Below are positions 14,658-62,762 of a stretch of DNA of 64,000 bases, in pieces. Every line of letters begins with the position of its first letter. Position 1 is the first letter of the stretch. Source of the stretch: Caulobacter segnis (GTDB taxonomy: Bacteria > Pseudomonadota > Alphaproteobacteria > Caulobacterales > Caulobacteraceae). Both the position numbers and the translations under genes were made by a program. Location: the NCBI RefSeq assembly GCF_019931575.1, contig NZ_CP082923.1, forward strand, positions 2,976,001-3,040,000, in the 5' to 3' direction. The notes under the pieces were generated by a model. It saw only the letters and a list, made by a program, of their open reading frames with translations, did not search any database and was not told the DNA's origin.

Positions 14658-14670
14658 GGAAACTGGAGCC

Positions 14671-15943: not shown

Positions 15944-15945
15944 GC

Positions 15946-19728: not shown

Positions 19729-19751
19729 TACCGGACTCCTGGAGACTACCC

Positions 19752-20861: not shown

Positions 20862-20876
20862 CCAACCACCGCATCA

Positions 20877-20904
20877 ACCGGTCCGGCGCCAACGCCGGAC
20901 CGGT
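20877..20904 (+). terminator. Intercistronic hairpin before the transporter gene
   Basis: This is a perfect 12-bp stem (ACCGGTCCGGCG / CGCCGGACCGGT) with a CCAA loop, in the 84-bp gap between the GH105 and transporter genes. There is no T-tract, so it is more likely an mRNA-stabilising or attenuating hairpin than a full terminator. Confidence 0.5.
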
Positions 20905-20945
20905 CAAAGGGGCGCCAAGACCCCGTCTCGAAGGGAAAGACACAC

Positions 20946-23124: not shown

Positions 23125-24254
23125 GAGGCGGACTCTCCAGGAGCGCCTATGGGCGCGATGGCGACCAGGCGCGTCCCGCTTCTGTCCGAGACGATGTCGA
23201 GATCGCCGCCGATGGCCGAAAGGCGGGTGCGCATGCCCTTCAGGCCCGAGCCTTCGACCAGGCCGCCGCCCCTGCCGTCGTCGACGATGCTGAGCGTCAG
23301 GGCCACAGGGCTGGGCGCCACCCGGATCTGGCAGCGCGTGGCGCCGGCATGGCGGATGACGTTGGTGACGGCCTCACGCAGGGCCATGGCCAGAACCGCC
23401 TCCTGGCCGGGATAGGCGTCGATCTCGTCGGCCGAGACCTCGGCCTGGATATTGGCGGCGGTCAGGGCCGTCCTGGCGCGCTCCAGCTCGGTGGTCAGCG
23501 AGGCGCCCTTCATGCCCACCACCGCCGTCCGGACCTCCGACAGCGCCTCGCGGGCGGCGGCGGCCACCGACTGCATCTCGCGTTCGGCGGCCACGGCGTC
23601 GCGGCTGACCAGCTTTGCGGCCAGCTCGGCCTTGACCGCCACCAGGGTCAGGGTGTGGCCCAAGAGGTCGTGCAGGTCGCGGGAGATCCGCTCACGCTCG
23701 GCCATGGTGGCCAGGGCGCGGACCTCCTCGTGGGCGACGGCCAGTTCCTGGTTCTTGCGCTCGACATCGGCCTGCATCAGGCCGGCGAAGCCGGTGATGC
23801 CGCCGAACAGCACGCCCGACGCCCAGACCGGCCAGTTGTAGTTCAAAAACAGCGGCCCCATGGCCAGCAGGACCACCTCCATCCCGACCATCGTGCGAAC
23901 CGCCAACCGGCGCGACCGCAGGCGCGCGGCGAACGACATGGCGTAGATCGTGTAGACGCTCCAGCCGACGTTGAACGACGACAGCGACACCCCGATGCCG
24001 AAGATCGCCAGCACATGCCACAGGGTAGGCCGGCCGCGTCGCAGCCAGATCCAGTAGAACAGGACCACGAAGGCCGCGAGTCCCGCGACCGAAGCCGCGA
24101 TCTCGACCACGCCCGGCCGCCGGAACAGCCAGGAAATGAAGTAGAACGGCAGATACGACAGGAAGATCAGGCTCCAGCGACGACGGTTCAGGCCGTCGGC
24201 CAGCGGCGCGCTGTTTTCGTCGTCCTTCGTCCGAGTCGCGGTCTCCTGGTCCAT
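23121..24254 (-). CDS. DesK-like membrane sensor histidine kinase (HisKA_3)
   Basis: This is a ~377-residue kinase with five or six hydrophobic segments in residues 30-165, then a coiled-coil and a HisKA_3 dimerisation domain with the phosphoacceptor in ERISRDLHDLLGHTL. A HATPase_c domain follows (REAVTNVIRHAGA; DDGRGGG; GLKGMRTRL). The frame is open far upstream; the ATG at 24254 was chosen as the first Met giving a normal N-terminus. TTG 24290 (overlapping the permease stop) and GTG 24284 are in-frame alternatives, and no strong ribosome site decides between them. Architecture and neighbours match the YvfTU/LnrJK type. Confidence 0.85.
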   Translation of the reverse strand: MDQETATRTKDDENSAPLADGLNRRRWSLIFLSYLPFYFISWLFRRPGVVEIAASVAGLAAFVVLFYWIWLRRGRPTLWHVLAIFGIGVSLSSFNVGWSVYTIYAMSFAARLRSRRLAVRTMVGMEVVLLAMGPLFLNYNWPVWASGVLFGGITGFAGLMQADVERKNQELAVAHEEVRALATMAERERISRDLHDLLGHTLTLVAVKAELAAKLVSRDAVAAEREMQSVAAAAREALSEVRTAVVGMKGASLTTELERARTALTAANIQAEVSADEIDAYPGQEAVLAMALREAVTNVIRHAGATRCQIRVAPSPVALTLSIVDDGRGGGLVEGSGLKGMRTRLSAIGGDLDIVSDRSGTRLVAIAPIGAPGESAS

Positions 24255-24286
24255 GCCGGCGATGTCGCGCGCGCCGCTCGCCACGG

Positions 24287-25024
24287 TCAAGCCGCCTGCC
24301 GCCGCCAGGCCGCCCAGGCGCCGGCCACGGCGGCCAGGCTGATCAAGGCCAGCACCGTCACGTGGCGCTGGACGTCGGCCATCGGCGTCATGCCCGACAG
24401 CATCATCGACAGCCGGCCCAGGTGGTACGACGGGGTGACCTCGGCGACCTTGGCGATCCAGCCCGGCATCAGGTCCAGCGGCATCCACAGGCCGCCAAAC
24501 AGGCAGAAGCTGAGGAACAGCAGGTTGGCCACCGCCGTCGCGCCTTGCGAGCCCAGGCGCAGGCCGATGTTCAGGCCGATCAGGGCGAAGGGAACCGCCG
24601 AGGCCAGCCCCAGCCCCAGGGTCGCGGCCCAGCGCCACGGAACCATCACCACCCCGCCGAACCAGGCCAGCACGCCCAACAGGCCGATGGCGGTGGCGAC
24701 CAGGGCCAGGGCGGCGGCCAGTCGTCCGGCCAGATAGCCGCCGGCGGGCAGCGGCGCGATCTGCTTCAGCTCGATCAGCTTGGCCTCGCGCTCGGCGGCG
24801 ACGGCGGCGCCGAAGCCGAACATGGCCGGCGCGATGGCGGCGAAGATCACGTAGTTGGCCAGCATGGCGTGGGCGATCTCCTCCCGCCCCTTGCTCAACC
24901 CCAGGCCGATGACGCCGTAGAACAGCAGCGGCAGGGCCAGGCTGGGAATCAGGAACTGCGGGGTGCGCCAGGTCGAGACGATCTGGGCGCGGGCTTCACG
25001 GGCGTAGACGGCGAGCGTGTGCAT
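24287..25024 (-). CDS. ABC-2 type transporter permease
   Basis: The 245-residue integral membrane protein has six predicted membrane segments and the ABC-2 permease pattern, including AAEREAKLIELKQIAPLP after the second segment and FLSFCLFGGLWMPLDLMP near the fifth. It is paired with the ATPase encoded one base upstream and followed by its two-component system, so the four genes form one operon. It is probably an efflux pump for a hydrophobic or antimicrobial compound. The substrate is unknown. Confidence 0.85.
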   Translation of the reverse strand: MHTLAVYAREARAQIVSTWRTPQFLIPSLALPLLFYGVIGLGLSKGREEIAHAMLANYVIFAAIAPAMFGFGAAVAAEREAKLIELKQIAPLPAGGYLAGRLAAALALVATAIGLLGVLAWFGGVVMVPWRWAATLGLGLASAVPFALIGLNIGLRLGSQGATAVANLLFLSFCLFGGLWMPLDLMPGWIAKVAEVTPSYHLGRLSMMLSGMTPMADVQRHVTVLALISLAAVAGAWAAWRRQAA

Positions 25025-25025
25025 G

Positions 25026-25973
25026 TCAGGCGACCTCGGCTTGACGGGTTTGGCCAGGCGCGCCGGCCTGGACGAGACGGGTGACGGCGTCCTCCAGCGA
25101 CGCGCCGGCGACGGTCAGGTCGTCGACGGTCTCGTCGCGGGCCAGCAGCTCGCGCAGCGTGGCGGGGGCCGAGGTGGTCAGCAGCGTGACCCGGCCGCCG
25201 TCGCGGCTGACGCCGGTGACGCGCGCCAGGCTCTCCAGCTCGGCGTCGGACAAACGCGTGCGGCAGCGGATGGCGACGCCCGAGACCCGGGCCTTGATCG
25301 CCTCGGGCGAGCCGTCGGCGATGACCTGGCCATGGTCGATGACCACGATGCGGTCGGCCAGGGCCTCGGCCTCGTCCAGATGGTGGGTGGTCAGCAGCAC
25401 GGCGCAGCCCCGGGCGATCTCGGCCCGGACGGCGGTCCACAGGCCCCGGCGAGCGTCGATGTCCATGCCGGTGGTCGGCTCGTCCAGGACCAGGAAGTCC
25501 GGCCGGCCGGCGATGGCCAGGGCGAACTGCACGCGGCGCTGCTGGCCGCCCGACAGGGCCCCGCAGCGGCGGCGCTCCAGACCTTCCAGCCCGGCCAGGC
25601 GGACGATCTCGTCCAGCGGACGGGGCGCCTTGTAGTAGCCCCGGAACAGGTCGACCTGCTCGCGGACCGTCAGGGTGCGCGGCAGGCCGGCCTCCTGCAG
25701 CATGACGCCCATCCGGCCCCTGCCGGCGACGTCGCGCGGATCGCCGCCGAACAGCGCGGCCTCACCCGCGTCGGGACGAAGGCGGCCGGTCAGCAGGGCG
25801 ACGCTGGTGCTCTTGCCCGCGCCGTTCGGCCCCAGCAGGGCCACGCACTGGCCGGGACGGATGATCAGGTCCAGGCCGTTCAGGGCCAGGGTCGCGCCCC
25901 GACGCTTGACGGCCTTGGACAACGCCGCGACGGGCAAGGGAAGGTTGGGCGGCTGCGGAGGATTGGGTGACAT
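25026..25973 (-). CDS. ABC transporter ATP-binding protein
   Basis: The ~315-residue ATPase has Walker A GPNGAGKST (about residues 49-57), the signature LSGGQQRR, Walker B FLVLDEPTTGMD and the switch histidine in LLTTHHLDEA. It has the C-terminal extension seen in drug/polyketide exporter ATPases. The frame extends to 26039, but the ATG at 25973 has GAGGGAG five bases upstream and fits the family start. It is the first gene of the exporter/two-component operon. Confidence 0.88.
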   Translation of the reverse strand: MSPNPPQPPNLPLPVAALSKAVKRRGATLALNGLDLIIRPGQCVALLGPNGAGKSTSVALLTGRLRPDAGEAALFGGDPRDVAGRGRMGVMLQEAGLPRTLTVREQVDLFRGYYKAPRPLDEIVRLAGLEGLERRRCGALSGGQQRRVQFALAIAGRPDFLVLDEPTTGMDIDARRGLWTAVRAEIARGCAVLLTTHHLDEAEALADRIVVIDHGQVIADGSPEAIKARVSGVAIRCRTRLSDAELESLARVTGVSRDGGRVTLLTTSAPATLRELLARDETVDDLTVAGASLEDAVTRLVQAGAPGQTRQAEVA

Positions 25974-26072
25974 GACGGCTCCCTCGATGTGGAGCCAGCA
26001 TGCCGCCGCGCCGCGCGGCCCATCAGTGCCGGCCGTCACCGGGCCGACATGACATTCGTCACCTTGGCGCCC

Positions 26073-26999
26073 TCAGGCCGCCGCGTTCCAGGCCTTGGTC
26101 ATCAGGGTCACCGGCGAGAAATCGCCGAACTCCCAGCGCAGCGGCAGCGCCGCGGGCCGCCGCCAGGCCTTCTCGGGCCTGAACCGCCACTGGCGCTGGA
26201 CGCCCTCTGGCCAGGCGCGGCCAGGTGGCGGATCCCAGTCGATCTCCACCCGTCCCTGCAGGTGCAGCAGGTCGCCGGTGTCGAAGTCGACGAACAGCAG
26301 GGCAGCGCGCGGGTCGGCGACCAGGTTGCCAAGGGTGTTGAAGAACCGGTTGCCCCGGAAGTCCGGCACGACCAGCTCGCCCTTCACGACCTTGACGAAG
26401 CCCGGCAGGCCGCCCCGGTGCGAGATGTCGACGCCGCCGTTCTCGGCGCCCGCCGCGCCCGAGGCGGTGGCGACGAAAAAGGTGTCGGCGTCGGCGATCT
26501 GGGCCAGGACTTCGGGCGCGTCGACAGCGACCGTCTCGGCCGGAACCATCGACGCCGGCGCGGTCTCGACGTCACGGGTCTGGATGTATTGCGGGCAATT
26601 GCCGAAGCTTTGCAGCACCTTGAGGCGCAAACCTCCAGCGTCGGCGGCCTCGATCACGCCGTTGGCGCGGTTGCGGCGGCGCGTGGCGAAGTCCAAACCC
26701 AGGGCCCCGAACGGCTGGCCGGCGCTGAAGAATTCGTGACCTGGCTCGCCCTCGCGCGGCGTCGCATGGATCACCAGGGTGGTCGGGTCGGGACTGTCGA
26801 TAAAGCCCGGCTCGCCGGTCAGCACCGTGGCGATCGGCCAACCTGCCGCGTCGACCGTGGCGACGAACAGGTACGGCAGCATTCCGAAGAAGTCCCGGTG
26901 CTGGTCGGGCATGAATGGCCGGATCCCCGTCATGCCGGGCGCGTGCAGGCCCGCTCGCGCCTGGGCGGCCAGCTCGCCGGCGTGGAAGGGCTGGTCCAT
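26073..26999 (-). CDS. Pyridoxamine 5'-phosphate oxidase-like flavin-binding protein
   Basis: The ~308-residue protein contains a pyridoxamine-phosphate-oxidase-like split barrel twice over: an N-terminal half (residues 35-110; PYLFVATVDAAGWPIATVL) and a second (about 160-260; ADTFFVATAS... FFNTLGNLVADPRAALLFVDF). Proteins of this type bind FMN or F420-like cofactors and reduce various substrates; the exact reaction is not known. The ATG at 26999 follows the GST stop by one base (TGACATG), so the two are coupled. Longer versions of the frame upstream lie inside the GST gene and are not credible. Confidence 0.8.
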   Translation of the reverse strand: MDQPFHAGELAAQARAGLHAPGMTGIRPFMPDQHRDFFGMLPYLFVATVDAAGWPIATVLTGEPGFIDSPDPTTLVIHATPREGEPGHEFFSAGQPFGALGLDFATRRRNRANGVIEAADAGGLRLKVLQSFGNCPQYIQTRDVETAPASMVPAETVAVDAPEVLAQIADADTFFVATASGAAGAENGGVDISHRGGLPGFVKVVKGELVVPDFRGNRFFNTLGNLVADPRAALLFVDFDTGDLLHLQGRVEIDWDPPPGRAWPEGVQRQWRFRPEKAWRRPAALPLRWEFGDFSPVTLMTKAWNAAA

Positions 27000-27000
27000 G

Positions 27001-27636
27001 TCAGGCGACCTCCTCTTGGGCGGCCTTGGCGGCCTGGGCGAAGTCCGGCATCGGCTGGAACCAGGGCTGGGCCTCGACCCGCGCGAGCCACGCCCGGACG
27101 TTCGGATACGCATCCAGCGACACCCCGCCCTCCGGCGCGTGGGCGACGTAGCTGTAGCAGGCCAGGTCCGCGAGCGTGACATGGTCGGCGGCCAGGAACG
27201 TCCTGTCCGCCAGGTGGCCGTCCATGAAGATCAGGACCCGGCCAGCGATCCGCGCGGCGCGGACCGGGTCGTCGGGCAGGCCGAACAGCGCGATCATCCG
27301 CGCCACCGCCGGGCCGTGCATGACCTCGCCCGCCGCGATCGACAGCCAGCGCTGCACCGAGGCCGCCGCGGCCGGCTCCTCCGGCAGCCAGGGACCGTCC
27401 GGGGCGTAGCGGCGCGCGAGATAGACGAGGATGGCGTTGCTGTCGACCAGGGTCAGGTCGCCGTCCTGCAGCACAGGAATCTGGCCAAGCGGATTGCGCG
27501 CCAGGAAGGCCGGCGACGCCCGCACGTCCTTCGGCGAGTCCGCGAACACGTAGCTCAGGCCCAGGGCGTTCAGCATCAGGGCCACCCGGTGGGTGTGCCC
27601 CGACAGGCCCGTGCCGTGCAGAACGATGGCGGCCAT
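27001..27636 (-). CDS. Glutathione S-transferase family protein
   Basis: This is a 211-residue protein of standard GST length. The N-terminal thioredoxin-like domain has LHGTGLSGHTHRVALML and the glutathione-binding QIPVLQDGD-x-TLVDSNAI motif (residues ~52-70). An all-helical C-terminal domain carries VTLADLACYSYV. It probably conjugates or isomerises an electrophile using glutathione. The ATG at 27636 has GGAG seven bases upstream. It is divergent from a LysR gene, whose operator-like repeat lies between them, and is coupled to the flavin-binding protein gene downstream. Confidence 0.87.
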   Translation of the reverse strand: MAAIVLHGTGLSGHTHRVALMLNALGLSYVFADSPKDVRASPAFLARNPLGQIPVLQDGDLTLVDSNAILVYLARRYAPDGPWLPEEPAAAASVQRWLSIAAGEVMHGPAVARMIALFGLPDDPVRAARIAGRVLIFMDGHLADRTFLAADHVTLADLACYSYVAHAPEGGVSLDAYPNVRAWLARVEAQPWFQPMPDFAQAAKAAQEEVA

Positions 27637-51124: not shown

Positions 51125-52069
51125 ATGAGCCGTATGTCGCCGACGGAAATGGCCCGCCAGCTCGGCGGCGGCCTGCTGTCGTTTCCCGTCACCCATTTCG
51201 ATGCCGATCACCAGTTCCTGGAAGCGCCCTACCGCGAGCATTGCGGCTGGATGCTGGAACGGGACCTGGCCGGTCTGTTCGCCGCCGGCGGCACGGGCGA
51301 GTTCTTCTCGCTGCGTCCCGAGGAAGTCGGTCGGGTGGTCCGCGCCGCGGTCGCGCAGACCGCCGGCAAGATCCCGGTCATCGCCGGCTGCGGCTATGGC
51401 ACGGCCATCGCCACCGACCTGGCCAAGGACGCCGAGGCGGCCGGCGCGGACGGCGTGCTGCTGCTGCCGCCCTACCTGACCAACGCCACGCAAGAGGGCC
51501 TGCTGGGCCACATCGAGGCGGTCTGCAAGTCCACCAAGCTGGGCGTCATCGTCTACAATCGCGACAACGCCATCATCAACGAGGACACCCTCGAGAAGCT
51601 GTGCGAGCGCAATCCGAACCTGGTGGGCTTCAAGGACGGCGTCGGCGACCTGGAGCTGATGATGCGGGTCTATGCCCGCATGGGCGACCGCCTGACCTAT
51701 ATCGGCGGCCTGCCGACGGCCGAGACCTTCGCCCTGCCCTATCTGGAGATGGGCGTGACGACCTATTCGTCGGCCATCTTCAACTTCCTGCCGGAATGGG
51801 CCCTGGACTTCTACAAGGCCGTCCGCGCTCGCGACCGCGACACCGTGATGGCCGGCCTGCGCGACTTCGTGCTGCCCTACATCGCCCTGCGCAACAAGGG
51901 TAAGGGCTACGCGGTGTCGATCGTGAAGGCCGGCATGAAGGCCATCGGTCGCGACGCCGGTCCGGTGCGGCTGCCGCTGACCGAGCTGACCCCGGCCGAG
52001 TTCGGCGAATTGCAGGGTCTGATCGCCCGCGTCCACGCCGGCGACCAGCGCCGCGCCGCCAACGCCTAG
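51125..52069 (+). CDS. kdgD: 5-dehydro-4-deoxyglucarate dehydratase
   Basis: The 314-residue protein is a DHDPS/NAL-superfamily barrel closest to KdgD. It has [12 protein letters not shown] near residue 14, GGTGEFFSL, the tyrosine segment VIVYNRDN and the Schiff-base lysine in [13 protein letters not shown] (near residue 180). It dehydrates and decarboxylates 5-dehydro-4-deoxy-D-glucarate to 2-oxoglutarate semialdehyde, the late step of the oxidative galacturonate/glucuronate (aldarate) pathway. This fits with the pectin genes around it. GAGAGGA precedes the ATG and a strong terminator follows. Confidence 0.92.
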
Positions 52070-52108: not shown

Positions 52109-52219
52109 CCGCTCCAGATGAACGCGTTCACGCCCCTCCCCGGGAAGAAGACGTTGGCGATCGGACCGAACGAGCGTCTAGCTTCACGCCTCCAGGGTGT
52201 TGTCGACGGGCGCTTTCCG

Positions 52220-53128
52220 ATGTTCGAACTGAGCCAGCTGCGCTGCTTCGTGGCCACGGCCGAGGAACTGCATTTCGGGCGCGCCGCCCAGCGGCTGAAC
52301 ATGACCCAGCCGCCGCTGAGCCGACAGGTCCAGCTTCTGGAGCGGATCCTGGGCGTCACCCTGCTGGACCGCACCAGCCGCTCGGTGCGCCTGACCCCCG
52401 CCGGCCGCGCCTTTCTGCTGGAGGCTCGCCGCATCCTGCGCCTGGCCGAAAGCGCGGCCCTGGCCACCCGCCGCATCGCGAGCGGCGAGGCCGGCCAGAT
52501 CGCCATCGGCTTCACCGCCGCCTCGGGCTACAACTTCCTGCCGCAGCTGGTGATCCTGTCCAAGGCTCGCCTGCCCAACGCCGACCTGACCCTGCGCGAG
52601 ATGGTCACCCGCGAGCAGGTCGAGGCCCTGCTGACCGGCCGCATCGACATCGGCCTGGTCCGCCCGCCGATGGAACGGGTCGAGTTCGCCACCGCCCGCG
52701 TGCTGTCCGAGCCGCTGGTCGCGGCCCTGCCCACCGGCGACGCGCGCCTGGCCAAGGCCTCACTGACCCTGGCCGATTTCGACGCCGCGCCGCTGATCAT
52801 GTATTCGCCCGAGGGCGCGGGCTATTTCTACAACATGCTGACGACCCTGTTCGACGCCAACGGCGTGGCCCCGAACTACGTCCAGCACGTCACCCAGATC
52901 CATTCGATGCTGGCCCTGGTCCATGCCGGCCTGGGCGCGGCGATCGTGCCCGAGGCGGCCATGAGCCTGCACTTCGACGACGTGCAGTTCCGCCCCGTGG
53001 CGACCACGCCCGACCGGCCGGTCGAGCTCTACATGGCCTGGCGCAAGGACAACGAGAGCCCGATCCTGCAGACCTTCATCGACCTTTGCCTGGCCGAGGC
53101 CTCGCCGACGGAGCCGGGCGCGCGCTGA
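52220..53128 (+). CDS. LysR-family transcriptional regulator
   Basis: The ~302-residue protein has the LysR HTH at its N-terminus (LRCFVATAEELHFGRAAQRLNMTQPPLSRQVQLLE) and an effector-binding domain (about 90-295). The frame extends to 52118, but starting at ATG 52220 places the HTH in the standard position. It resembles the aromatic/organic-acid-responsive LysR branch. Position between kdgD and a carboxylesterase gene suggests it regulates one or both; the effector is unknown. Confidence 0.87.
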   Translation: MFELSQLRCFVATAEELHFGRAAQRLNMTQPPLSRQVQLLERILGVTLLDRTSRSVRLTPAGRAFLLEARRILRLAESAALATRRIASGEAGQIAIGFTAASGYNFLPQLVILSKARLPNADLTLREMVTREQVEALLTGRIDIGLVRPPMERVEFATARVLSEPLVAALPTGDARLAKASLTLADFDAAPLIMYSPEGAGYFYNMLTTLFDANGVAPNYVQHVTQIHSMLALVHAGLGAAIVPEAAMSLHFDDVQFRPVATTPDRPVELYMAWRKDNESPILQTFIDLCLAEASPTEPGAR

Positions 53129-53190
53129 CGCACGCCATCTCTCCCTCGGTGGATCCCGGCCCAACGACGACAAGACTTGGGAGAGACAAG

Positions 53191-54771
53191 ATGCCCCTCG
53201 ATCGCCGCGCCGTGCTGGCGGGAACCCTGGCGGCGGCCGCCGCCCCCCTCGCCATTGGGCCTCGCGTGAACGCCGCCGGCCGCGCCGCCCCGGTCGCGAC
53301 CACCACGGCCGGCCGGGTGCGCGGCGCCGAGGTCGAGGGGATCAAGGTGTTCAAGGGCGTCCGCTACGGCGCCGACACCGCCTCGCGCCGCTTCCAGCCG
53401 GCGCAGGCCGCCCAGCCCTGGAAGGGGATCGCCGACGCCCTCGCCTACGGCTCGGCCAGCCCGCAGAGCAAGATCGACGAAGGGGCCAGCGAGGACTGTC
53501 TGTTCCTGAACGTCTGGACGCCGGGTCTGGCCGACGGGAAGAAGCGGCCGGTGATGTTCTACGTCCACGGCGGCGCCCACGCGAACGGCTCGGGCTCCAG
53601 CCCGCTCTATGACGGGACCTGGCTGGCCAAGACCTATGACGTGGTGGTGGTGACGGTGAACCACCGCCTGAACTGCTTCGGCTACGCCTTCCTGGCGCGG
53701 CTGGGCGGGCCGGAGCTGGCCGACAGCGGCAATGTCGGCAATCTCGACCTGATCCTGGCGCTGGAATGGGTGCGCGACAACATCGCCGCGTTCGGCGGAG
53801 ACCCCGGCAACGTCATGACCTTCGGCCAGTCGGGCGGCGGGGCCAAGTGCGTCACCCTGATGGCCATGCCGCGCGCGGCGGGCCTCTACCACAAGGTCGC
53901 GACGATGAGCGGCCAGCACGTCACCGCCATGGGCCCGATCCACGCCACGATCCGCGCCCGCGCCTTCATGGAGAAGCTGGGCCTCAAGCCCGACCAGACC
54001 GAGGCCCTGAAAACCCTGCCCGCCGCCCAGCTGGTCGAGGCGCTGAGGATGCGCGATCCCCTGGAGCGCAAGGGCGGCATCGTCTTCTGGTCGGTCGTCG
54101 ACCACGGCGTGCTGACGCGCCACCCGTTCTATCCGGACGCCCCGCGCGAAAGCGGCCATATCCCGATGATCATCGGCAACACCCACGACGAGACCAAGGC
54201 CTTCCTGGGCGGCGATCCCAAGAACTTCGCCCTGACCTGGGAGGAGCTGCCGGGCCGGATGGAGAACGAGCTGGTCCTCGACGTCGCCCCCGAGCACATC
54301 ATCGCCCGCTATCGTCAGCTCTATCCAAACTACAGCCCCTCGGACGTGTTCTTCGCCGCCACTACGGCCGGCCGCTCGTGGCCCGGCCACCTGATCCAGG
54401 CCGAACGGCGGGCGCAGATCGACGCGCCGGCCTGGATGTACCAGTTGGACTTCGGCGCCCAGACCGATCCGAAGATGGGCGCCTATCACAGCTACGACAT
54501 CGCCCTGGTGTTCGGCACGCTGGGGGCCAAGGGCTCGATGACCGGCACGGGGCCAGCGGCCCAGAAAGTCCGAGATCAAATGAGCGCGGCCTTCGTCAGC
54601 TTCGCGCGCACGGGCGACCCGAACTGCGCGGCGATCCCGGCCTGGGAGAAATACACCCTGCCCCGCCGTCCGACCTTGGTGGTCAACGAAACGTCGGCGA
54701 TGATCGACGACCCGCGCAAGGAGGAGCGCGAGCTGTTCGCCGTGGCTCCCTTCATGAAGGAAGGGACCTGA
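53191..54771 (+). CDS. Type-B carboxylesterase, exported
   Basis: The 526-residue alpha/beta hydrolase has a signal with twin Arg (LDRRAVLAG, then AAAAAPLAIG), EDCLFLNVW, the oxyanion HGGAHANG, the nucleophile Ser214 in GQSGG and the catalytic His433 in GAYHSYD. Type-B carboxylesterases cleave esters of many substrates. In this setting it may remove acyl or feruloyl groups from plant polysaccharides (inference). GGGAGAG precedes the ATG; upstream parts of the frame overlap the LysR gene. Confidence 0.87.
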   Translation: MPLDRRAVLAGTLAAAAAPLAIGPRVNAAGRAAPVATTTAGRVRGAEVEGIKVFKGVRYGADTASRRFQPAQAAQPWKGIADALAYGSASPQSKIDEGASEDCLFLNVWTPGLADGKKRPVMFYVHGGAHANGSGSSPLYDGTWLAKTYDVVVVTVNHRLNCFGYAFLARLGGPELADSGNVGNLDLILALEWVRDNIAAFGGDPGNVMTFGQSGGGAKCVTLMAMPRAAGLYHKVATMSGQHVTAMGPIHATIRARAFMEKLGLKPDQTEALKTLPAAQLVEALRMRDPLERKGGIVFWSVVDHGVLTRHPFYPDAPRESGHIPMIIGNTHDETKAFLGGDPKNFALTWEELPGRMENELVLDVAPEHIIARYRQLYPNYSPSDVFFAATTAGRSWPGHLIQAERRAQIDAPAWMYQLDFGAQTDPKMGAYHSYDIALVFGTLGAKGSMTGTGPAAQKVRDQMSAAFVSFARTGDPNCAAIPAWEKYTLPRRPTLVVNETSAMIDDPRKEERELFAVAPFMKEGT

Positions 54772-54893: not shown

Positions 54894-56417
54894 TTATCGC
54901 CCCAACGCCAAAGCTTGGGAGAACGCCGAGCTCGCCCCCGCCGCCGAGGTGGTCGTGGCGGTGATGGCCGAGCCCGCCGCCGCGCCCTCCACCTCGCCCG
55001 CGAAGGCGGCCTTGCCGCCGGCGTCCGTCACCGCCTGGATCGCGCCCAGATAGCGCTCGCCCTCGGCGGTCCCGGCCTTGCCGGCGAAGAGTTCGACGGT
55101 GACCAACGACTCCGGCGGGCCTGCCAGTACGCCCTTCACGGCCAGCTTGCCGCCACTCGCGCGGACCGAGGCCAGGCTGGGCGGCAGCAGGCCGAACTGC
55201 GGCGTCGCGTGGCAATTGGCCGGGTCGCCCTGCCCCGTGCAGGCCACCGCCGCCCCGGCCTTGTCGAACACCACGCCCATGCCGCGTGAACCGACGAAGC
55301 TGGCGTGCTCCAGGCCCGGCGGACCGACGACGATACCGCCCCGGACCATCTTGGGATCACACGAGCCGCCGGCCGAGCATCGCATAATCGGCAGGCCGTT
55401 GCCGGCGATGGTGTTCTGGCTGATCCGGTTGGCGGCGACCTTGGCCTCGGGCCGCACGGCGACGCCGATCCCGTTGCCGCGGATGTCGTTACCCTCGACC
55501 ATATTGGCCGCGCCGGTCAGGCTGATCCCGAAGGCGTTGCCCTCGAAGGTGTTGGCGCTGATGTAGTTACGCGCGCCCCAGTTGGATTGCAGGCCGTCGG
55601 AATAGCGCACGAAGCGGTTGCGCACGACGGTGTTGTCGTTGCCCCACAGGATCTCGATGCCCTGCGAGGGCTCGAGATTGTCGACCCCGCCGTCGAAGAC
55701 GTTGTCGGCGATCAGGTTGAAGGCCGCGCCGCGCGTCAGCTCAAGGCCGTCGCCGTTCTCGAGGAAGGTGTTGCGCAGCACCTTGTTGTCCAGCGTGGTG
55801 TGCGAGGTCGAGCCGCCCTTGCCGTCGTCGCCGCTGAGCATGACGCCCGCACCGCCGATGTTACGGACGATGCGATTGTCGACGACCACCGCATTCGAGG
55901 TGCGCAGGATCAGCACGCCGATGCAGAAGTTTCGGATCTCCAGGCCGCGCAGCGTCACGCCCTTGGTGTCGACCAGGGCGAAGCCCGGATTGCTGGCGGT
56001 GCGGACATTGGCGCCGTACTGGCCCTGGACCATGCCCGGGCAGGACTTCAGGTCGCGTGGCAGATAGCTCGAACCGTCGACGACGTTATGGCCGCCCGAG
56101 CGGGCGAAGGCGCGGCCCTCGATCGAGACCGGGCCCTTGATCGGCGGCAGGGCCGACCTCAGCACAATGGTCGGGACCGCGATCTCGATGCGGTAGCGGC
56201 CGGGCTCGGCGTTGCTCGTGATCACCGCCCAGCGCAGCGAGCCCTGCGCCTCGTCGTCGGCCTCGCGATCGACCAGCAGCAGCGTCGTCTCGGCGCCGGT
56301 CGTCGCCGGACCACCGGCGGCGACCGCCGCGATCGGCTTGGGATCAGCGGTCTGGGCCAGGGCCGGAGCGGCCGCCAGCGCCATCAGCATCGCCCAACGG
56401 GAAGCCGAGCCGATCAT
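54894..56417 (-). CDS. Secreted right-handed parallel beta-helix protein
   Basis: The 507-residue protein has a signal peptide (residues 1-22, ending ALAQ) and a long run of beta-helix (PbH1-like) repeats (about residues 140-330). Each repeat is ~22 residues with Asn ladders (for example VVVDNRIVRNIGGAGV, TVVRNRFVRYSDG, NYISANTFEGNAFGI). A C-terminal beta-sandwich follows (about 400-505). The fold is that of polysaccharide lyases and related carbohydrate enzymes, but I do not recognise a catalytic signature. AAGGAGGG precedes the ATG. It is the third gene of an operon with a uronate-type transporter and an unknown secreted protein. Confidence 0.8.
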   Translation of the reverse strand: MIGSASRWAMLMALAAAPALAQTADPKPIAAVAAGGPATTGAETTLLLVDREADDEAQGSLRWAVITSNAEPGRYRIEIAVPTIVLRSALPPIKGPVSIEGRAFARSGGHNVVDGSSYLPRDLKSCPGMVQGQYGANVRTASNPGFALVDTKGVTLRGLEIRNFCIGVLILRTSNAVVVDNRIVRNIGGAGVMLSGDDGKGGSTSHTTLDNKVLRNTFLENGDGLELTRGAAFNLIADNVFDGGVDNLEPSQGIEILWGNDNTVVRNRFVRYSDGLQSNWGARNYISANTFEGNAFGISLTGAANMVEGNDIRGNGIGVAVRPEAKVAANRISQNTIAGNGLPIMRCSAGGSCDPKMVRGGIVVGPPGLEHASFVGSRGMGVVFDKAGAAVACTGQGDPANCHATPQFGLLPPSLASVRASGGKLAVKGVLAGPPESLVTVELFAGKAGTAEGERYLGAIQAVTDAGGKAAFAGEVEGAAAGSAITATTTSAAGASSAFSQALALGR

Positions 56418-56435
56418 CGATCCCTCCTTGAAGAC

Positions 56436-58280
56436 TTAAGCCCGCTCCCAGGGGAAGCTCAGGGTCGGGGCGTTGGTATAGCGCTTCATCCTCAGCGTCA
56501 GCCGCGCGCCGGCGCCGGGAGCCAGACGCAGCGTGAATGCCGAGGACTCGACCACCGTCGGAGCCCCCTCACCCACCGCGGCGCTCAGGATCTGGTGCTC
56601 GGCATAGGCGCCGCCCTGCACCGTCACGGTGCGCGCTACGACCTGGTTGGTGTTGATCAAGGTGACGACCGTCTCGTCCTCGCCGAGCTTTTCGACCAGG
56701 GCCGAGACGTCCGGCGGAATGCCGGCGCGGCGGCGCTCGGGATCGAACCAACGCAGGCGGGCGTAGTGCAGCGCCCCGCCCTGGGCCGGCGACGTCCCCG
56801 ACCACGGCGGCCGGGCGATCTGGATGCCGCCCTCCATCAGGTGGATCAGGGCCGTGACGCTGGCCGGATTGATGTCCAGCGTCGCGTCGGCCAGGCGGGT
56901 GTCGGGCGAGGTCGTGTCATCGCGCTGGGCCTGGGCGCGCGCGCGGACCCGCTCCAGGTCGGTCCGCAGGGCCTTGACCGGATAGCCGGCGTCCTTGCCC
57001 TCCAGATAAGACACCCAGGGATGGTCGGCCGCGCGGGCCCGATCGCTGGCCTTCTGCGACATGTACCAGATCTCGAGGCCGTTCAGCCGATACTCGCCGG
57101 GCGCATAGCCGTACCAGCCCTTGGGGCCGTACATGCGCGGCGTCATCAGCTTGCCGTCGACGGTCTTCTTCTGGGCGTTGATCACGTCGTTCTGGCGACG
57201 CCAGACGTCCAGATACTTGTCGTCGCCGGTCAGCAGGTAGGCGTTGAGGAAGCCGACCACGGCGCGCGGCACGCGGTTGCGATCCTCGCGCTTGCCGGTC
57301 TGCGGCACCACGGGGGAAAAGCCCCAGCCATAGGTCCCGCTCCACCACTGGCCCTTAGGCCCGCCGATCTTGCCGTCCAGGCCGATCTTGCTGGGCAGGA
57401 CGTCGCCATTGGCCTTGGCCCGCTCGATCCAGGCGTCGACGTAGCTGACGATCCAGTCGCGGTACTTCGGCTCATGGTCCAGCATGTAGGCGTTCAAGAC
57501 GAGGCTCGTGGCCTGCAGGTTCAGAGGCGCGTCACCGACCACGTCGCCATATTCGTCGTAGTGGTGCAGCGTCTCCTCGTAGGTGCTCTCGCCGTGCTCC
57601 ATGAAGAAGTTCGTCGGGTCGAACCGGTCGCCGGCCCAGTCCAGCGGCGTGGCCTGCCGCAGCATCGGTCCCTTGCTGCCGGTGATCATGCTGCGGATGA
57701 TCTTCAGCTTGGGATCGTAGTTCGGGACCGCCTTGTCCTCGCCGGTATAGAAGCCCGAGAAGCGCTTCACCCGGTCGCGGTAGCGCGGGTCGTTCGGGTC
57801 CGACAGGCCCAGCAGGTTGAACACCGACAACCCTTCGGACAGGTGCTGCCAGTCGGTCATGACCGGGAACTCGCGGAAGTACATGCCCTCGCGGGCGAAG
57901 GGCACTTCCCTGGTCTTGGCCGCCGTGTACTGGGCGACATTGCCCTCGAAGGCCTTCTTGGCCATGGCCAGGACCTGGTCGCCCGCGCCCAGCGCATGCA
58001 GGGTCGGCCAGTCGTTGACGTTCTCGATGGCGTCGTCGGGACCGTCATTGGCGCCCCAGCGCTCGACCGCCCGCAGCCAGCCGCGCTCGTCGAAATAACG
58101 GGCGAAGAAGGCCGCGCAGGCCTCCTCGTTGGCCTTCAGCAGTTCGCGCTGCAACAGCGCCCACTCGGGTGGGGCCATCGGCGTCGAGACCGTCAGGATC
58201 GGAGCCGCCAGGGCCGGGCGCGCCAGGGCGGCGAAGACCAGGGCCGAGGCGCCGGCCAGGACGGAACGTCGGGTCGTCAT
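56436..58280 (-). CDS. Secreted protein of unrecognised family (possible polysaccharide-active enzyme)
   Basis: The 614-residue product has a Tat-like signal (TTRRSVLAG then a hydrophobic run ending ALAA). No family is recognised with confidence. The central part (residues ~60-430) is rich in Trp, Tyr and His and in helix-forming segments with local patterns such as YEETLHHYDEYGDVV and PKGQWWSGTYGWGFSP, recalling alpha/alpha-barrel glycosidases and lyases. The last ~130 residues look like a beta-sandwich. It lies six bases after the ACS transporter stop and just before the beta-helix gene, so it is probably periplasmic and acts on a uronic-acid-containing glycan. The frame is open far upstream, but that part is the transporter gene in another frame. 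Confidence 0.75.
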   Translation of the reverse strand: MTTRRSVLAGASALVFAALARPALAAPILTVSTPMAPPEWALLQRELLKANEEACAAFFARYFDERGWLRAVERWGANDGPDDAIENVNDWPTLHALGAGDQVLAMAKKAFEGNVAQYTAAKTREVPFAREGMYFREFPVMTDWQHLSEGLSVFNLLGLSDPNDPRYRDRVKRFSGFYTGEDKAVPNYDPKLKIIRSMITGSKGPMLRQATPLDWAGDRFDPTNFFMEHGESTYEETLHHYDEYGDVVGDAPLNLQATSLVLNAYMLDHEPKYRDWIVSYVDAWIERAKANGDVLPSKIGLDGKIGGPKGQWWSGTYGWGFSPVVPQTGKREDRNRVPRAVVGFLNAYLLTGDDKYLDVWRRQNDVINAQKKTVDGKLMTPRMYGPKGWYGYAPGEYRLNGLEIWYMSQKASDRARAADHPWVSYLEGKDAGYPVKALRTDLERVRARAQAQRDDTTSPDTRLADATLDINPASVTALIHLMEGGIQIARPPWSGTSPAQGGALHYARLRWFDPERRRAGIPPDVSALVEKLGEDETVVTLINTNQVVARTVTVQGGAYAEHQILSAAVGEGAPTVVESSAFTLRLAPGAGARLTLRMKRYTNAPTLSFPWERA

Positions 58281-58285
58281 GTCGC

Positions 58286-59602
58286 TCAGGCCGCCTTCAG
58301 TTCCAGACGCTGGATTTTCCCGACGATCAGGAAGTAGGCCAGGATGGTGATCACGCAGTGCGCGCCGACGAAGATCAGGGCGCCGTCGAACGACCCGGTC
58401 GCCTTGACGATGTAGCCGATGACGATCGGGGTCACGATCCCCGCCACGTTGCCGAAGGTGTTGAAGACCCCGCCGGTGACGCCGGCCATCTCCTTGGGCG
58501 AGGTGTCGGACACCACCGCCCAGCCCAGCGACGCCACGCCCTTGCCGAAGAACGCCAGGGCCATGACCACCACGACCAGCCACTCCTGCTCGATCCACAC
58601 GCAGGCGATGATGCAGGTGGCCAGGATCATGCCCAGCAGCAGCGGCGTCTTGCGGGCGATGTCCAGCGAGCCGGTGCGCTTGAGCAGCGCGTCCGAGATC
58701 ACGCCGCCGAACACCCCGCCGACGAAGCCGGCCAGGGCCGGCGCGGCGGCCGTGAAGCCGGCCTCCATGATCGACATGCCCCGCGCCTTGACCAGGTAGA
58801 TCGGGAACCAGGTGACGAAGAAGTAGGTCAGCACGTTGATGCAGTACTGGCCCAGATAGACGCCTAGCAGCATGCGGCTGGACAGCACCTGCTTGATGTT
58901 GGGCCAGGTGAAGGCCGCGCCGTTGCTGGCCGAGGCCTCTTCCATCCGCACCAGGCCGCCGCCGGCCTCGATATGGTCGAACTCGGCCTTGTTGATCCAG
59001 GGATGGACGGTGGGGCTGTGGATCAGCTTGGCGAAGAAGATCGCCGCCACGACGCCGACCGCGCCCATCACGAAGAACACCGAGCGCCAGCCGAACACGT
59101 GGGCCAGCCAGCCCATCAGCGGCGCGAAGGCGACCAGCGAGAAGTACTGGGCCGAGTTGAAGATCGCCGAGGCCGTGCCGCGCTCCGAGCCGGGAAACCA
59201 GGCCGCCACGATACGGGCGTTGGCCGGGAACGACGGCGACTCTCCCAGGCCCACGGCGAAGCGCATGGCGAACAGCACGGTCGCCGCCATCAGGCCGGTG
59301 AAGAAGCCGGCGAAGCCCTGCAGCGCCGTGAACAGCGACCAGACGACCAGCGAGATCACGTAGATCTTCTTGGAGCCGAAGCGATCCAGCAGCGCCCCGC
59401 CGGGGATCTGGCCCAGGACATAGGCCCAGGCGAAGGCCGACAGGATGTAGCCCATGGCCACCGGGTCGAGGCCCAGCTCCTTCGACGCCGACTGGCCGGC
59501 GATCGAGAAGGTCGCGCGGTCGGCGTAGTTGATCGTGGTGATGATGAAGAGGACCGTGATGATCAGCCAGCGCACCCGCGTTCGCTTGGTGGTGTCGGTC
59601 AT
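58286..59602 (-). CDS. MFS transporter, ACS family (hexuronate/aldarate type)
   Basis: The 438-residue transporter has 12 predicted membrane segments and strong resemblance to the anion:cation symporter branch that includes ExuT, GudP and GarP: TTINYADRATFSIAG near residue 20, AWAYVLGQIPGGALLDRFGSK, FAVGLGESPSFPANARIVAAWFP and the late GVTGGVFNTFGNVAGI. It likely imports galacturonate, glucuronate or an aldarate by proton symport. It heads a three-gene operon and is divergent from a TonB receptor, giving a matched outer- and inner-membrane uptake route. Confidence 0.9.
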   Translation of the reverse strand: MTDTTKRTRVRWLIITVLFIITTINYADRATFSIAGQSASKELGLDPVAMGYILSAFAWAYVLGQIPGGALLDRFGSKKIYVISLVVWSLFTALQGFAGFFTGLMAATVLFAMRFAVGLGESPSFPANARIVAAWFPGSERGTASAIFNSAQYFSLVAFAPLMGWLAHVFGWRSVFFVMGAVGVVAAIFFAKLIHSPTVHPWINKAEFDHIEAGGGLVRMEEASASNGAAFTWPNIKQVLSSRMLLGVYLGQYCINVLTYFFVTWFPIYLVKARGMSIMEAGFTAAAPALAGFVGGVFGGVISDALLKRTGSLDIARKTPLLLGMILATCIIACVWIEQEWLVVVVMALAFFGKGVASLGWAVVSDTSPKEMAGVTGGVFNTFGNVAGIVTPIVIGYIVKATGSFDGALIFVGAHCVITILAYFLIVGKIQRLELKAA

Positions 59603-59972
59603 ACGTGTCTCTTCCCTGTTCGAGAGCCGATCTGTCGTCGGCGTCCATCGAGGCGACGCTAGAGGCGCCCGCGGGGAAGGTCTAAGTCAATTCTCCTATC
59701 GACCAATCCACGAGAGACATGGATCGAGGCGGTTTCCGTATCGAAACCCAGTCCGGGGGCGCCGATAGACAGCGCTATTTCAGGAAAAACCCAATGAAAA
59801 TGGTCTTTTCCGCGCGTTTACACCCTTGATCCGTGCCGAAAGCGCATAGGTTCATACCCGATTGGGATTGGCCCTCGACGAAAACCCGCTCCTATCTTGA
59901 AGCCAACGAAGAAGGTGGTTCGACCACCTTCGGCACGAAAGAGACCCGCGCATGCGGGCACTGGGAGGGATG
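59603..59972. promoter_or_regulatory. 370-bp divergent regulatory region (transporter / TonB receptor)
   Basis: The region holds the promoters of two divergent transcripts. It contains an inverted repeat GGTTTC-N6-GAAACC (59731-59748), suggestive of an operator. Near the receptor start there is a perfect hairpin GAAGGTGGT-TCG-ACCACCTTC (59911-59931), followed by CCCGC-N4-GCGGG (59945-59958) just before the ribosome site. The stretch around 59760-59880 is relatively AT-rich. No gene is supported here. Confidence 0.5.
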
Positions 59973-62762
59973 ATGTCGACCAACCACAAACCCGCTGTGC
60001 GCGCCGTTCTGGCGTTGAGCGCCTCGGCCCTGGCTCTGACGCTGGCCGGCGCGGCCGCCGCGCAGGACGCCGCTCCGGCGCCCGCCGCCGACGAGGTCGA
60101 GGCCGTCGTCGTCACCGGCTTCCGCGCCAGCCTGCAGAGCGCGATGAACCTCAAGCGCAACTCGAGCGGCGTCGTCGACGCCATCAAGGCCGAAGACATC
60201 GCCCAGTTCCCTGACCTGAACCTGGCTGAATCGCTGCAGCGCATCCCCGGCGTCTCGATCTCGCGCATCAACGGCGAAGGCCGCCAGATCACCGTGCGCG
60301 GCCTGGGCTCGGAATACACCCGCGTCCGCATCAACGGCATGGAGGCCATCTCCACCACCGGCGGCACCGCCAACAGCGGCGGCACCAACCGCGGCCGCGG
60401 CTTCGACTTCAACGTCTTCGCGTCGGATCTCTTCAACAGCATCGCGGTGCGCAAGACCGCCTCGGCCGACGTCGAGGAAGGCTCGCTGGGCGCCACGGTC
60501 GACCTGAACACCTCGCGCGCCTTCGACAGCCGCAAGCCCCAGCTCGTGCTGTCCGCCGGCGCCAGCTACAACGACCTGGCCGAAAAGACGACGCCGCGCG
60601 TCTCGGCCCTAGCCAGCCGCACCTTCTTCGACGGCAAGCTGGGCGTCCTGATCTCGGCCGCCTACGAAGAGCGCCACCTCAAGGAAGAAGGCGCCAACAT
60701 CACCCGCTGGTCCACCGGCGGCAGCAACGGCGGCTTCAACGCCGCCTCGACGATCCCGGGCTACACGATCGCCCAGATCAACGAGACCGACACGACCAAG
60801 GCCATCTTCGCCCCGCGCATCCCGGCCTATGTCAGCTACGACATCAAGAACAAGCGCACGGGCCTGGCCGGCTCGCTGCAATACAAGCCGGACGCCAACA
60901 CCGAGATCAACTTCGACGCCCTGTACGCCTATCTGGCCGGCGTGCGGAAGGAAGCCCAACTGCAGGCCATCGGCCTGTCGCGCGCCACCACCGGCAAGCC
61001 GCAGACCATCATCCGCGACGGCGTCGTCGAGAACGGCAATCTCGTCTACGCCCGCATGGACAATGTCGATCTGCGCACCCAGTCGGCCTATGACGAGCTG
61101 AACACCGAGTTCAAGCAGTTCACCCTGTCGGCCAAGCACAACTTCGGCGACCGCGTGGTGGTCGGCGCCCTGGCGGGCTACGCGGACTCAACCTTCACCC
61201 AGCCGGTCTCGACGATCGTCACCTTCGATCGGGCCAACAGCGCCAACTACGTCTACGATTTCCGCAAGGGCCGCGCCCCGCAGATCCTGCTGAACTTCGA
61301 CGCCACCGATCCGGCCAACTGGTCGGCGATCAATGGCACCTCGGAAGTCCGCATCCGCCCGACCTTCGTCGAGAACCAGTTCTCGACCGCCAAGATCTAC
61401 GGCGAGTGGGAAGCCAACCAGAACCTGAAGCTCAAGGCCGGCGTCGACTGGCGCAAGTTCGAGTACGACAGCTACGGCCTGTACCGGACCACCGAGACCG
61501 TCAGCCAGACCCTGACCCCCGCCGAGCTGGCCTCGGTCTCCAAGGTGTTCAGCGGCTTCGGCAAGGGCCTGGACATGCCGGCCGGCAACGCCACCGCCTG
61601 GCTGGTGCCCGACATCGACAAGTACGCCGCCCTGCTGAACATCTACAGCAACACCGGCATCTACGCCCTGACCGGCACCAACAACACCTCGGCCCGCGGC
61701 CAGTACGGCGCCGTCGAGGAGCAGGACACCGGCGCCTACGTCCAGGCCGAGTTCCGTTTCGAGGCGCTGGGCCTGCCCTTCCGCGGCGACGCCGGCGTTC
61801 GTCGCGTCCACACCGAGCAGGAGTCGGCCGGCTACGCCGCCGTCGCCGGCGTGATCCAGCGCGTCGACGTCAAGCGCGACTACGACCTGACCCTGCCGTC
61901 GTTCAACATCGCCGCCGACGTCACCGACACCTTCGTGGCCCGCTTCAGCGCCGCCAAGACGATCGCCCGCCCGGGCATCGGCTCGCTGGCGCCTGGCGGC
62001 GACGTGTCGGTGCAGGGTTCGAACCGCAGCTACAGCTCGGGCAACCCGTACCTGAACCCGACCCAGTCCAAGAACATCGACGTCTCGCTGGAGTGGTATC
62101 CGGCCTCGGGCACGATGTTCGCCGCGGGCTTCTTCTACAAGAAGATCGACACCTTCGTCGCCAATCTGAGCGAGTCTCGCGTCTACAACACCCTGGGCCT
62201 GCCGGACTCGCTGATCGCCGGCACCACCGCCACGCCCGACATGGTGTTTCAGGTCTCCAAGCCGATGAACACCAAGGGCGGCGATCTGAAGGGCTTCGAG
62301 CTGAACGCCCAGCAGCCCTTCACCTTCCTGCCGGGCTGGCTGAGCCACTTCGGCGTCATCGCCAACTACACCTACGTCGCCTCCAAGATCGAATACCCGA
62401 CCACGACGACGGCGGGCGGCCCCGTCATGATCGAGGACCTGATCGGCCTGTCGAAGCATGCCGCCAACGCCACGCTCTACTACGAAACCCCGAAGTGGAG
62501 CGTCCGCGGTTCGCTGGCCTATCGCGGCGGCTACCTGACCCAGGTTCCGGCCAGCGACAACAACCTCATCGCCGGCACCAACTCGACCTTGAACGTCGAC
62601 ATGCAGGCCAGCTGGAACATCCGCGACAACCTGAAGCTCTCGGTCGAGGGCGTGAACCTGACCGACGAGTTCAACGACCAGTACGTCGGCTACACCGACC
62701 GCCTGAACGTCTACACCCACAGCGGACGCCAGTTCATCGTCGGCCTCCGCTACAACTTCTAG
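59973..62762 (+). CDS. TonB-dependent receptor, Xanthomonas/Caulobacter class
   Basis: This ~929-residue outer membrane receptor has a signal peptide (ending AAAAQ), a VEAVVVTGFR TonB-box-like start, and a plug with FPDLNLAESLQRIPGVSISR and GEGRQITVRGLG. Its long barrel ends RQFIVGLRYNF. ATG 59952, 59970 and 59973 are in frame; GGGAGGG sits immediately before the last two, making 59973 the likeliest start. It is similar to the receptor at 35584-38535. Divergence from a hexuronate-type transporter suggests uptake of a uronate-containing oligosaccharide. The ROK regulator follows after a terminator. Confidence 0.92.
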   Translation: MSTNHKPAVRAVLALSASALALTLAGAAAAQDAAPAPAADEVEAVVVTGFRASLQSAMNLKRNSSGVVDAIKAEDIAQFPDLNLAESLQRIPGVSISRINGEGRQITVRGLGSEYTRVRINGMEAISTTGGTANSGGTNRGRGFDFNVFASDLFNSIAVRKTASADVEEGSLGATVDLNTSRAFDSRKPQLVLSAGASYNDLAEKTTPRVSALASRTFFDGKLGVLISAAYEERHLKEEGANITRWSTGGSNGGFNAASTIPGYTIAQINETDTTKAIFAPRIPAYVSYDIKNKRTGLAGSLQYKPDANTEINFDALYAYLAGVRKEAQLQAIGLSRATTGKPQTIIRDGVVENGNLVYARMDNVDLRTQSAYDELNTEFKQFTLSAKHNFGDRVVVGALAGYADSTFTQPVSTIVTFDRANSANYVYDFRKGRAPQILLNFDATDPANWSAINGTSEVRIRPTFVENQFSTAKIYGEWEANQNLKLKAGVDWRKFEYDSYGLYRTTETVSQTLTPAELASVSKVFSGFGKGLDMPAGNATAWLVPDIDKYAALLNIYSNTGIYALTGTNNTSARGQYGAVEEQDTGAYVQAEFRFEALGLPFRGDAGVRRVHTEQESAGYAAVAGVIQRVDVKRDYDLTLPSFNIAADVTDTFVARFSAAKTIARPGIGSLAPGGDVSVQGSNRSYSSGNPYLNPTQSKNIDVSLEWYPASGTMFAAGFFYKKIDTFVANLSESRVYNTLGLPDSLIAGTTATPDMVFQVSKPMNTKGGDLKGFELNAQQPFTFLPGWLSHFGVIANYTYVASKIEYPTTTTAGGPVMIEDLIGLSKHAANATLYYETPKWSVRGSLAYRGGYLTQVPASDNNLIAGTNSTLNVDMQASWNIRDNLKLSVEGVNLTDEFNDQYVGYTDRLNVYTHSGRQFIVGLRYNF

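Follow-up and report, generated by a model that had tools for sequence, protein, structure and literature searches.

Caulobacter segnis carries a gene for a 614-residue protein, here P0002, that raises a double question: to which family of enzymes does it belong, and on which substrate would it act? The whole stretch of DNA analysed, referred to below as the window, is 64,000 nucleotides long. An earlier note had described an open reading frame at 56436-58280, and the frame is indeed there, on the minus strand, which the note had not given. The gene and its neighbours are the following.

51125..52069, plus strand: KdgD, 5-dehydro-4-deoxyglucarate dehydratase (TIGR03249, 425.3 bits, above the equivalog cut-off of 373.95)
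52118..53128, plus strand: LysR regulator (Pfam)
53086..54771, plus strand: type-B carboxylesterase with an RR-type leader seen by eye (COesterase, E 2.2e-84)
54894..56417, minus strand: β-helix protein, a QuiC-type 3-dehydroshikimate dehydratase (PDB 8wm1, E 6e-122, residues 43-503)
56436..58280, minus strand: gene of P0002, an open frame of 614 codons plus stop with no internal stop and with homologues in bacteria and archaea
58286..59602, minus strand: MFS transporter of the ACS/D-galactonate (DgoT-like) type, first gene of the operon (TIGR00893, 435.3 bits, cut-off 395)
59952..62762, plus strand: TonB-dependent receptor, divergent (TIGR01782, 692.6 bits, cut-off 310)

Five bases separate the stop of the MFS gene from the start of the P0002 gene, and 18 bases lie between the P0002 stop and the start of the QuiC-type gene. 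The MFS protein is closest in the PDB to the D-galactonate transporter 6e9n (E 8.5e-98) and KdgD to 4ur7 (E 1.4e-107), while the PDB matches of the carboxylesterase are Est50 and a p-nitrobenzyl esterase. To note, a long antisense frame (plus strand, 55305-58337) overlaps the P0002 gene. The earlier note had set P0002 between an ACS-type transporter and a β-helix protein, as is the case, and facing a TonB receptor; the receptor is divergent, with the MFS gene lying in between. It had also taken the β-helix neighbour as a mark of a polysaccharide-enzyme setting. The close homology of this protein to the QuiC-type enzyme 8wm1 rules out a polysaccharide lyase, and one reason for invoking polysaccharides is thereby gone; instead, in the Caulobacter operons this neighbour may point to plant phenolics. 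The core cluster, made of the MFS transporter, the TonB receptor, the type-B carboxylesterase, LysR and KdgD, contains none of the polysaccharide lyases or glycosidases that the note had led one to expect, and the possible substrates therefore include oligouronides and smaller sugar acids that carry acyl groups.

Further genes lie elsewhere in the window. Positions 11828-15579 hold non-phosphorylating L-rhamnose genes, with proteins passing the models of L-rhamnonate dehydratase (776 bits) and 2,4-didehydro-3-deoxy-L-rhamnonate hydrolase (508 bits), followed by an amidohydrolase. Positions 15853-22514, which look like a rhamnogalacturonan-type cluster, comprise a 1291-codon frame matching part of GH43 together with GH35, then a GH88/105 gene and an MFS_2 transporter. 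Three consecutive open frames at 23349-27179 (462, 317 and 396 amino acids) have no Pfam match at E 1e-4.

P0002 is present in a single copy in its own genome. Judged from its relatives, its gene is coding beyond chance: 41 of the 249 genomes examined from its taxonomic family contain a substantial homologue, a single scan of genome contigs yields at least 368 relatives, 80 of which were kept for a study of their loci, and further copies reside in haloarchaea and actinomycetes. The relatives in genome contigs include those of Caulobacter, Phenylobacterium, Asticcacaulis, Brevundimonas, Sphingomonas, Sphingobium, Novosphingobium, Steroidobacter, Planctomycetes and Verrucomicrobia, so that the family ranges from Sphingomonadales, Steroidobacter, Planctomycetes and Verrucomicrobia to actinomycetes and haloarchaea. 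Seventeen plasmid records carry a homologue, 12 of them haloarchaeal and three from actinomycetes; these haloarchaeal and actinomycete proteins share ~28-32% identity with P0002 over 88-96% of the query, and the annotated genes under the plasmid matches are all named 'hypothetical protein'. The homologue of Natrinema sp. SYSU A 869 (L129) is found in two pieces where no gene is annotated, and may be interrupted.

The protein itself can be divided into the following parts, the first assigned by eye and the domains from AlphaFold models.

58203..58280, minus strand: RR-type signal peptide, approximately residues 1-26 (pLDDT below 50 over residues 1-23)
56811..58175, minus strand: predicted (α/α) toroid domain, approximately residues 36-490
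58023..58046, minus strand: motif D79-G-x-D82-D83-x-x-E86 at a helix start, candidate catalytic acids, invariant in 22 of 22 sequences
57834..57854, minus strand: motif D143-W-x-H146-x-x-E149 shortly ahead of a later helix, with candidate catalytic residues, unchanged in all 22 aligned sequences
56481..56756, minus strand: C-terminal β-sandwich, approximately residues 509-600, from the secondary structure of the model

Inspection by eye of the N-terminus, MTTRRSVLAGASALVFAALARPALAAP, points to an RR/Tat-type signal, which bears out the export proposed earlier, as a prediction from the sequence. The Pfam TAT_signal model matches four of 62 family sequences scanned singly (P0002 and 61 relatives chosen from the 80 loci), and no signal peptide is seen in the 10 haloarchaeal homologues of a 22-sequence alignment. 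This alignment, chosen for spread, took in 10 of the 12 haloarchaeal copies and contains 55 invariant residues. Among them are D79, D82, D83, E86, D143, W144, H146, E149, N187 and Y188, as well as D250, N254, R287, W312, Y317, W319, R414 and D513. When the alignment is placed on the AlphaFold model, the invariant acids and His146 are located at or just before helix starts.

The earlier note could not place the protein in a family, and neither do the sequence searches. Queried with P0002 alone, NCBIfam and PADLOC return no match, and the Pfam search that the note had proposed returns nothing above threshold for P0002 or for the 61 relatives. Over the 62 sequences six Pfam families are matched, in a scattered and weak manner. 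The glucuronyl C5-epimerase C-terminal domain PF06662 is found on P0002 over 31 residues with 11.6 bits (E 0.19), below its gathering score of 23.3 bits, and in four of the 62 sequences (best E 0.028). Searches of PDB sequences yield no match with the single protein or with an 18-sequence profile, and with the 62- and 22-sequence profiles the best E-value is an unconvincing 0.49. No description of the family was found in the open-licence PMC literature, examined largely at title and listing depth. On these sequence comparisons, the family has no counterpart in the searched copies of Pfam, NCBIfam and the PDB sequence set, CAZy models lying outside the comparison.

The AlphaFold predictions are confident (pLDDT 91.7 and pTM 0.91 for the whole chain, 92.8 and 0.91 for the helical domain alone). 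The helical α/α centre followed by a C-terminal β-sandwich, as anticipated in the earlier note, is seen in the model. The structure prediction and fold comparison that it had called for thus yield a toroid, but one from which no family stands clear of the others. Foldseek with the whole chain ranks GH127 first (E 1.6e-5), while the helical domain brings cellobiose 2-epimerases to the top (best E 3.6e-5); TM-scores are below 0.5 among the matches listed for either query. VIA-align places GH88, GH76, epimerases and GH47 within ~3 Z units, the best being 14.6, with rmsd values mostly of 4.5-6 Å. Its top row, the GH88 unsaturated glucuronyl hydrolase 2fv0 (Z 14.6, rmsd 5.5 Å, 301 residues aligned), is tied with unrelated families, and none of GH76, GH127, GH47 and PL2 is clear of other families in Foldseek or VIA-align. 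Since GH76, GH88, GH47 and sugar epimerases score about equally among the PDB matches, all of them far, the fold neither assigns a family nor separates a lyase from a hydrolase or an epimerase. As modelled, P0002 is a toroid resembling those of carbohydrate enzymes, and nothing finer.

One of these likenesses is to GH88/GH105 (2fv0, 1vd5), with which P0002 has in common a predicted helical toroid, a uronic-acid setting and acidic residues ~60 positions apart. P0002 might then be an unsaturated-uronyl hydrolase, which would hydrate the double bond of the terminal residue that polysaccharide lyases leave unsaturated and so remove this residue. Besides the VIA-align ranking, the invariant acids of the family (79-86 and 143-149) recall the 88/149 spacing of the GH88 acids, and a weak profile alignment sets E149 on the D-x-L-x-M segment of GH105. 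However, no significant sequence or profile similarity accompanies this likeness. PF07470 (GH88/GH105; gathering score 26.6 bits) does not match P0002 at E<=1 and is matched by one of the 62 family sequences (E 0.014), and hhalign of the P0002 family against GH88/GH105 gives a probability of 0.8-1.3% (p 0.04-0.07) over ~80 columns. The P0002 family also has an extra C-terminal β-sandwich and long insertions, and coexists with GH88 in its own genome. Moreover, GH88 scores above cut-off on eight of the 12 haloarchaeal plasmids and PL22 on six, so that a simple replacement of GH88 or PL22 by P0002 in haloarchaea is not supported on these plasmids. With the Caulobacter core cluster devoid of a polysaccharide lyase, such a hydrolase appears unlikely.

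An epimerase or isomerase of the AGE type, acting on a sugar or a uronate, is suggested by the Foldseek E-values of the toroid domain, the best of which belong to this superfamily (cellobiose 2-epimerase 4z4l, YihS), cellobiose 2-epimerases being also among the top whole-chain rows. Against it, PF07221 (AGE) has no match on P0002 and is not one of the six Pfam families seen over the 62-sequence set, and hhalign gives 0.2-0.3%. AGE enzymes have two catalytic histidines in the toroid, whereas the P0002 toroid has one invariant histidine, H146, among the 22 sequences. The bacterial proteins are also predicted to be exported, which would be odd for an isomerase, and this assignment is highly improbable. 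As a yardstick, hhalign of GH88 against AGE gives 36%, and the method is therefore able to see some toroid relatives (inputs were 23 of 28 GH88 loci and 25 of 30 AGE loci); for the P0002 family, remote homology to GH88 or AGE is not supported, at 1.3% and 0.3% at best.

Other toroid families resemble P0002 still more loosely. The GH76 and GH47 mannosidases and the GH127 arabinofuranosidase possess a toroid of comparable size, but TM-scores are below 0.5 among the Foldseek matches listed and VIA-align rmsd values are at least 4.5 Å. The nucleophile of GH127 is a cysteine, and no cysteine is invariant among the 22 sequences. The PL2 pectate lyases (2v8j, 6ojk) combine a toroid with lyase activity on galacturonan, and Foldseek returns them with E 2.8e-4 to 2.8e-3 among the matches listed, but with a TM-score of ~0.3, an rmsd of ~12 Å and no sequence match. 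PL38, the glucuronan/alginate lyases, also adopts a toroid and shares a uronan setting, being set beside P0002 by description only; the Brevundimonas glucuronan lyase is reportedly a PL38 member. Neither the single sequence nor any of the three profiles retrieves a convincing PDB sequence, of PL38 or of another family, and no row of this name is among the fold matches listed.

The surroundings of the gene are more telling. Among the 80 loci, 25 of which are shorter than 21 kb, the MFS gene is present in 65, and in 62 it is co-oriented with the homologue and immediately upstream of it. KdgD is found in 58, LysR in 57, and the carboxylesterase and the TonB receptor in 55 each; some of the 22 loci without KdgD are short. 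In Asticcacaulis (L056, L058) KdgD and MFS are the sole cluster genes adjoining the homologue, the carboxylesterase being present farther off in L058. The cluster genes are absent at all seven Planctomycetes/Verrucomicrobia loci; the flanks are shortened in four of these. Elsewhere the neighbours are a GDSL esterase, an aldehyde dehydrogenase and UxaC (L063), two MR_MLE proteins (L084), an oligogalacturonate-lyase-like protein (L104), or MR_MLE, DHDPS-family and amidohydrolase proteins (Nonomuraea, L120). The sugar-acid setting advanced in the earlier note is thus borne out, as many relatives adjoin uronate, pectin-type or sugar-acid genes.

Some loci depart from this pattern. In one alphaproteobacterial group (L075, L081, L087, L088, L089, L098) a gene of cluster c9, a cytochrome c in L089, precedes the homologue, and L089 also has a PQQ dehydrogenase, a solute-binding protein and an NHL/SMP-30-like protein nearby. 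KdgD is absent at all six, which suggests periplasmic oxidation instead. Among Planctomycetes and Verrucomicrobia, DUF1501 genes are near the homologues of L097 and L106, and L100 has, close to its homologue, a member of the gene cluster to which the L097 DUF1501 gene belongs.

On the haloarchaeal plasmids, every one of the 12 neighbourhoods (±9 kb) contains one or more genes labelled pectate lyase, GH28, GH4, MR_MLE, DHDPS, UxaC or mannonate dehydratase: pectate lyase in six, MR_MLE in five, the DHDPS family in four, GH4 in three, GH28 in two, and UxaC or mannonate dehydratase in two. By their scores these labels carry less weight than they suggest, as two of the 'pectate lyases' reach 241-248 bits against a PelZ cut-off of 840, and one DHDPS protein attains half of the KdgD-subfamily cut-off. 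Haloarchaeal isolates have been described as having pectinase genes and yet not growing on pectin (PMC9726719), and on that account the archaeal setting does not by itself demonstrate that pectin is used. Near the homologues of L123, L124 and L127 there are ThuA-domain genes, accompanied in L124 and L127 by Gfo/Idh/MocA oxidoreductases, a pairing that we take to be reminiscent of 3-keto-glycoside breakdown.

The neighbours also allow a different setting, that of plant phenolics rather than polysaccharides. Plants contain sugar acids esterified with phenolics, for instance hydroxycinnamoyl-hexarates, and P0002 could act on these together with the carboxylesterase. The frequency of this type-B esterase with its predicted export signal, the QuiC-type dehydratase of the Caulobacter operons and a GDSL esterase cluster in four loci (one member confirmed by Pfam) are consistent with such a role. 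However, the QuiC-like gene occurs in only 10 of the 80 loci, all among those of Caulobacter and close MAGs (L031-L042), and the haloarchaeal neighbourhoods are of pectin or sugar-acid type and not aromatic, with the exception of L123, where ring-hydroxylating dioxygenase genes are near. A dedicated role on phenolic esters is accordingly quite doubtful.

The strongest link is that with KdgD. P0002 and KdgD were each searched in 249 evenly drawn genomes of the taxonomic family, the listed genomes agreeing between the two scans. A 56-residue fragment in one genome (G138, E 7.4e-4) and a second short match in another (G209) were dropped, which reduced the genomes with P0002 from 42 to 41. KdgD scores above cut-off in 39 of the 249, and all 39 possess the P0002 gene. 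In 37 of them the two genes are within 12 kb (1.6-10.4 kb apart); in the other two they are 135 kb apart or on different contigs. The co-occurrence has a Fisher p of 1.4e-43, a statistic that ignores the relatedness of the genomes. Of the two genomes with P0002 and without KdgD, one has a partial copy at a contig end and the other a copy on a 10-kb contig.

KdgD requires 5-keto-4-deoxy-hexarate, and the source genome, which encodes one KdgD, has no evident enzyme to supply it. No glucarate dehydratase exceeds the cut-off there (best E 0.069), and two PF04295 proteins are both far below that of galactarate dehydratase. The six MR_MLE matches are two ManD, one L-rhamnonate dehydratase, two DgcA-like proteins just below cut-off and a weak one. 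As no hexarate dehydratase is recognised and KdgD never occurs without P0002, the simplest inference is that P0002 makes the substrate of KdgD or its immediate precursor. The main reading, with a probability of roughly 80%, is that P0002 is an enzyme with sugar-acid substrates whose step precedes that of KdgD.

How it would do so is more tentative. Several features would suit a hydrolase of saturated uronides, i.e. a glucuronidase or galacturonidase, with the free uronate passing through oxidation and dehydration by other enzymes before it reaches KdgD: many of the toroid matches are glycosidases; the 22-sequence alignment has many invariant acids; GH4 and GH28 accompany some haloarchaeal copies, as counted above; and the MR_MLE and DHDPS neighbours in L120 and L127 fit oxidative breakdown of uronates. 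Yet this route calls for a dehydratase leading from uronate to the KdgD substrate, and none is recognised in the source genome or in the conserved cluster, which makes it rather unlikely. The reading preferred here, at somewhat less than even odds, is that P0002 acts on conjugates of uronic or hexaric acids by β-elimination and that its product feeds KdgD, as a C4-C5 elimination of a 4-substituted hexuronate or hexarate would supply the KdgD substrate or its immediate precursor.

From the basis in hand, namely the predicted fold class, the operon, the co-occurrence with KdgD, the sugar-acid setting and the by-eye signal sequence, we infer the substrate, the β-elimination, the product identity and the step order of a pathway that would run as follows. 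A conjugate or short oligomer of a uronic or hexaric acid would enter via the TonB receptor, and the exported carboxylesterase would strip acyl groups where present. P0002 would free the uronic or hexaric unit, most likely by β-elimination at C4-C5, giving a 4-deoxy-5-keto C6 acid that the MFS transporter would take up and KdgD would convert to 2,5-dioxopentanoate. A released hexarate would need no extra step before KdgD, while a released hexuronate would need one oxidation at C1.

The enzymatic equipment of the source genome counts in part against elimination: a KduI match (best E 1.5e-108), two UxaC and five GH88 matches over cut-off, one of the five being weak, indicate that ordinary routes exist for plain 4-deoxy-5-keto-uronate. 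An unrecognised hexarate dehydratase in this genome is also possible. A natural hexarate-ended substrate does exist, as plant oligogalacturonide oxidases convert the reducing-end galacturonate into galactarate (PMC7773757); a galactarate-ended oligogalacturonide as the substrate of P0002 is a speculation. In its boldest form, which is improbable, the elimination reading would make P0002 the type of a new lyase family, spanning bacteria and haloarchaea, that eliminates 5-keto-4-deoxy-hexarate directly from hexarate-ended or acylated sugar acids. P0002, one transporter and KdgD would then constitute a three-protein shortcut to 2,5-dioxopentanoate that needs neither a uronate dehydrogenase nor a hexarate dehydratase.

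P0002 is thus a real and well conserved protein, which by tests against Pfam, NCBIfam and the PDB represents a new family on a known fold and in a known kind of pathway. The earlier proposal of a candidate undescribed carbohydrate-active family agrees with the lack of a match in Pfam, NCBIfam and PDB sequences and with the sugar-acid neighbours, but loses the β-helix neighbour that had been taken as of polysaccharide type. The family, large and nameless in Pfam and NCBIfam, is an annotation gap in sugar-acid metabolism that extends from Caulobacter to haloarchaea. P0002 is a good candidate for a missing step in the breakdown of plant sugar acids, and its tight pairing with KdgD makes its product predictable. 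If the elimination holds, it would explain how KdgD is supplied in a genome without a recognised hexarate dehydratase, and it may bear on the haloarchaea that carry pectin-type genes and yet reportedly were not seen to grow on pectin.
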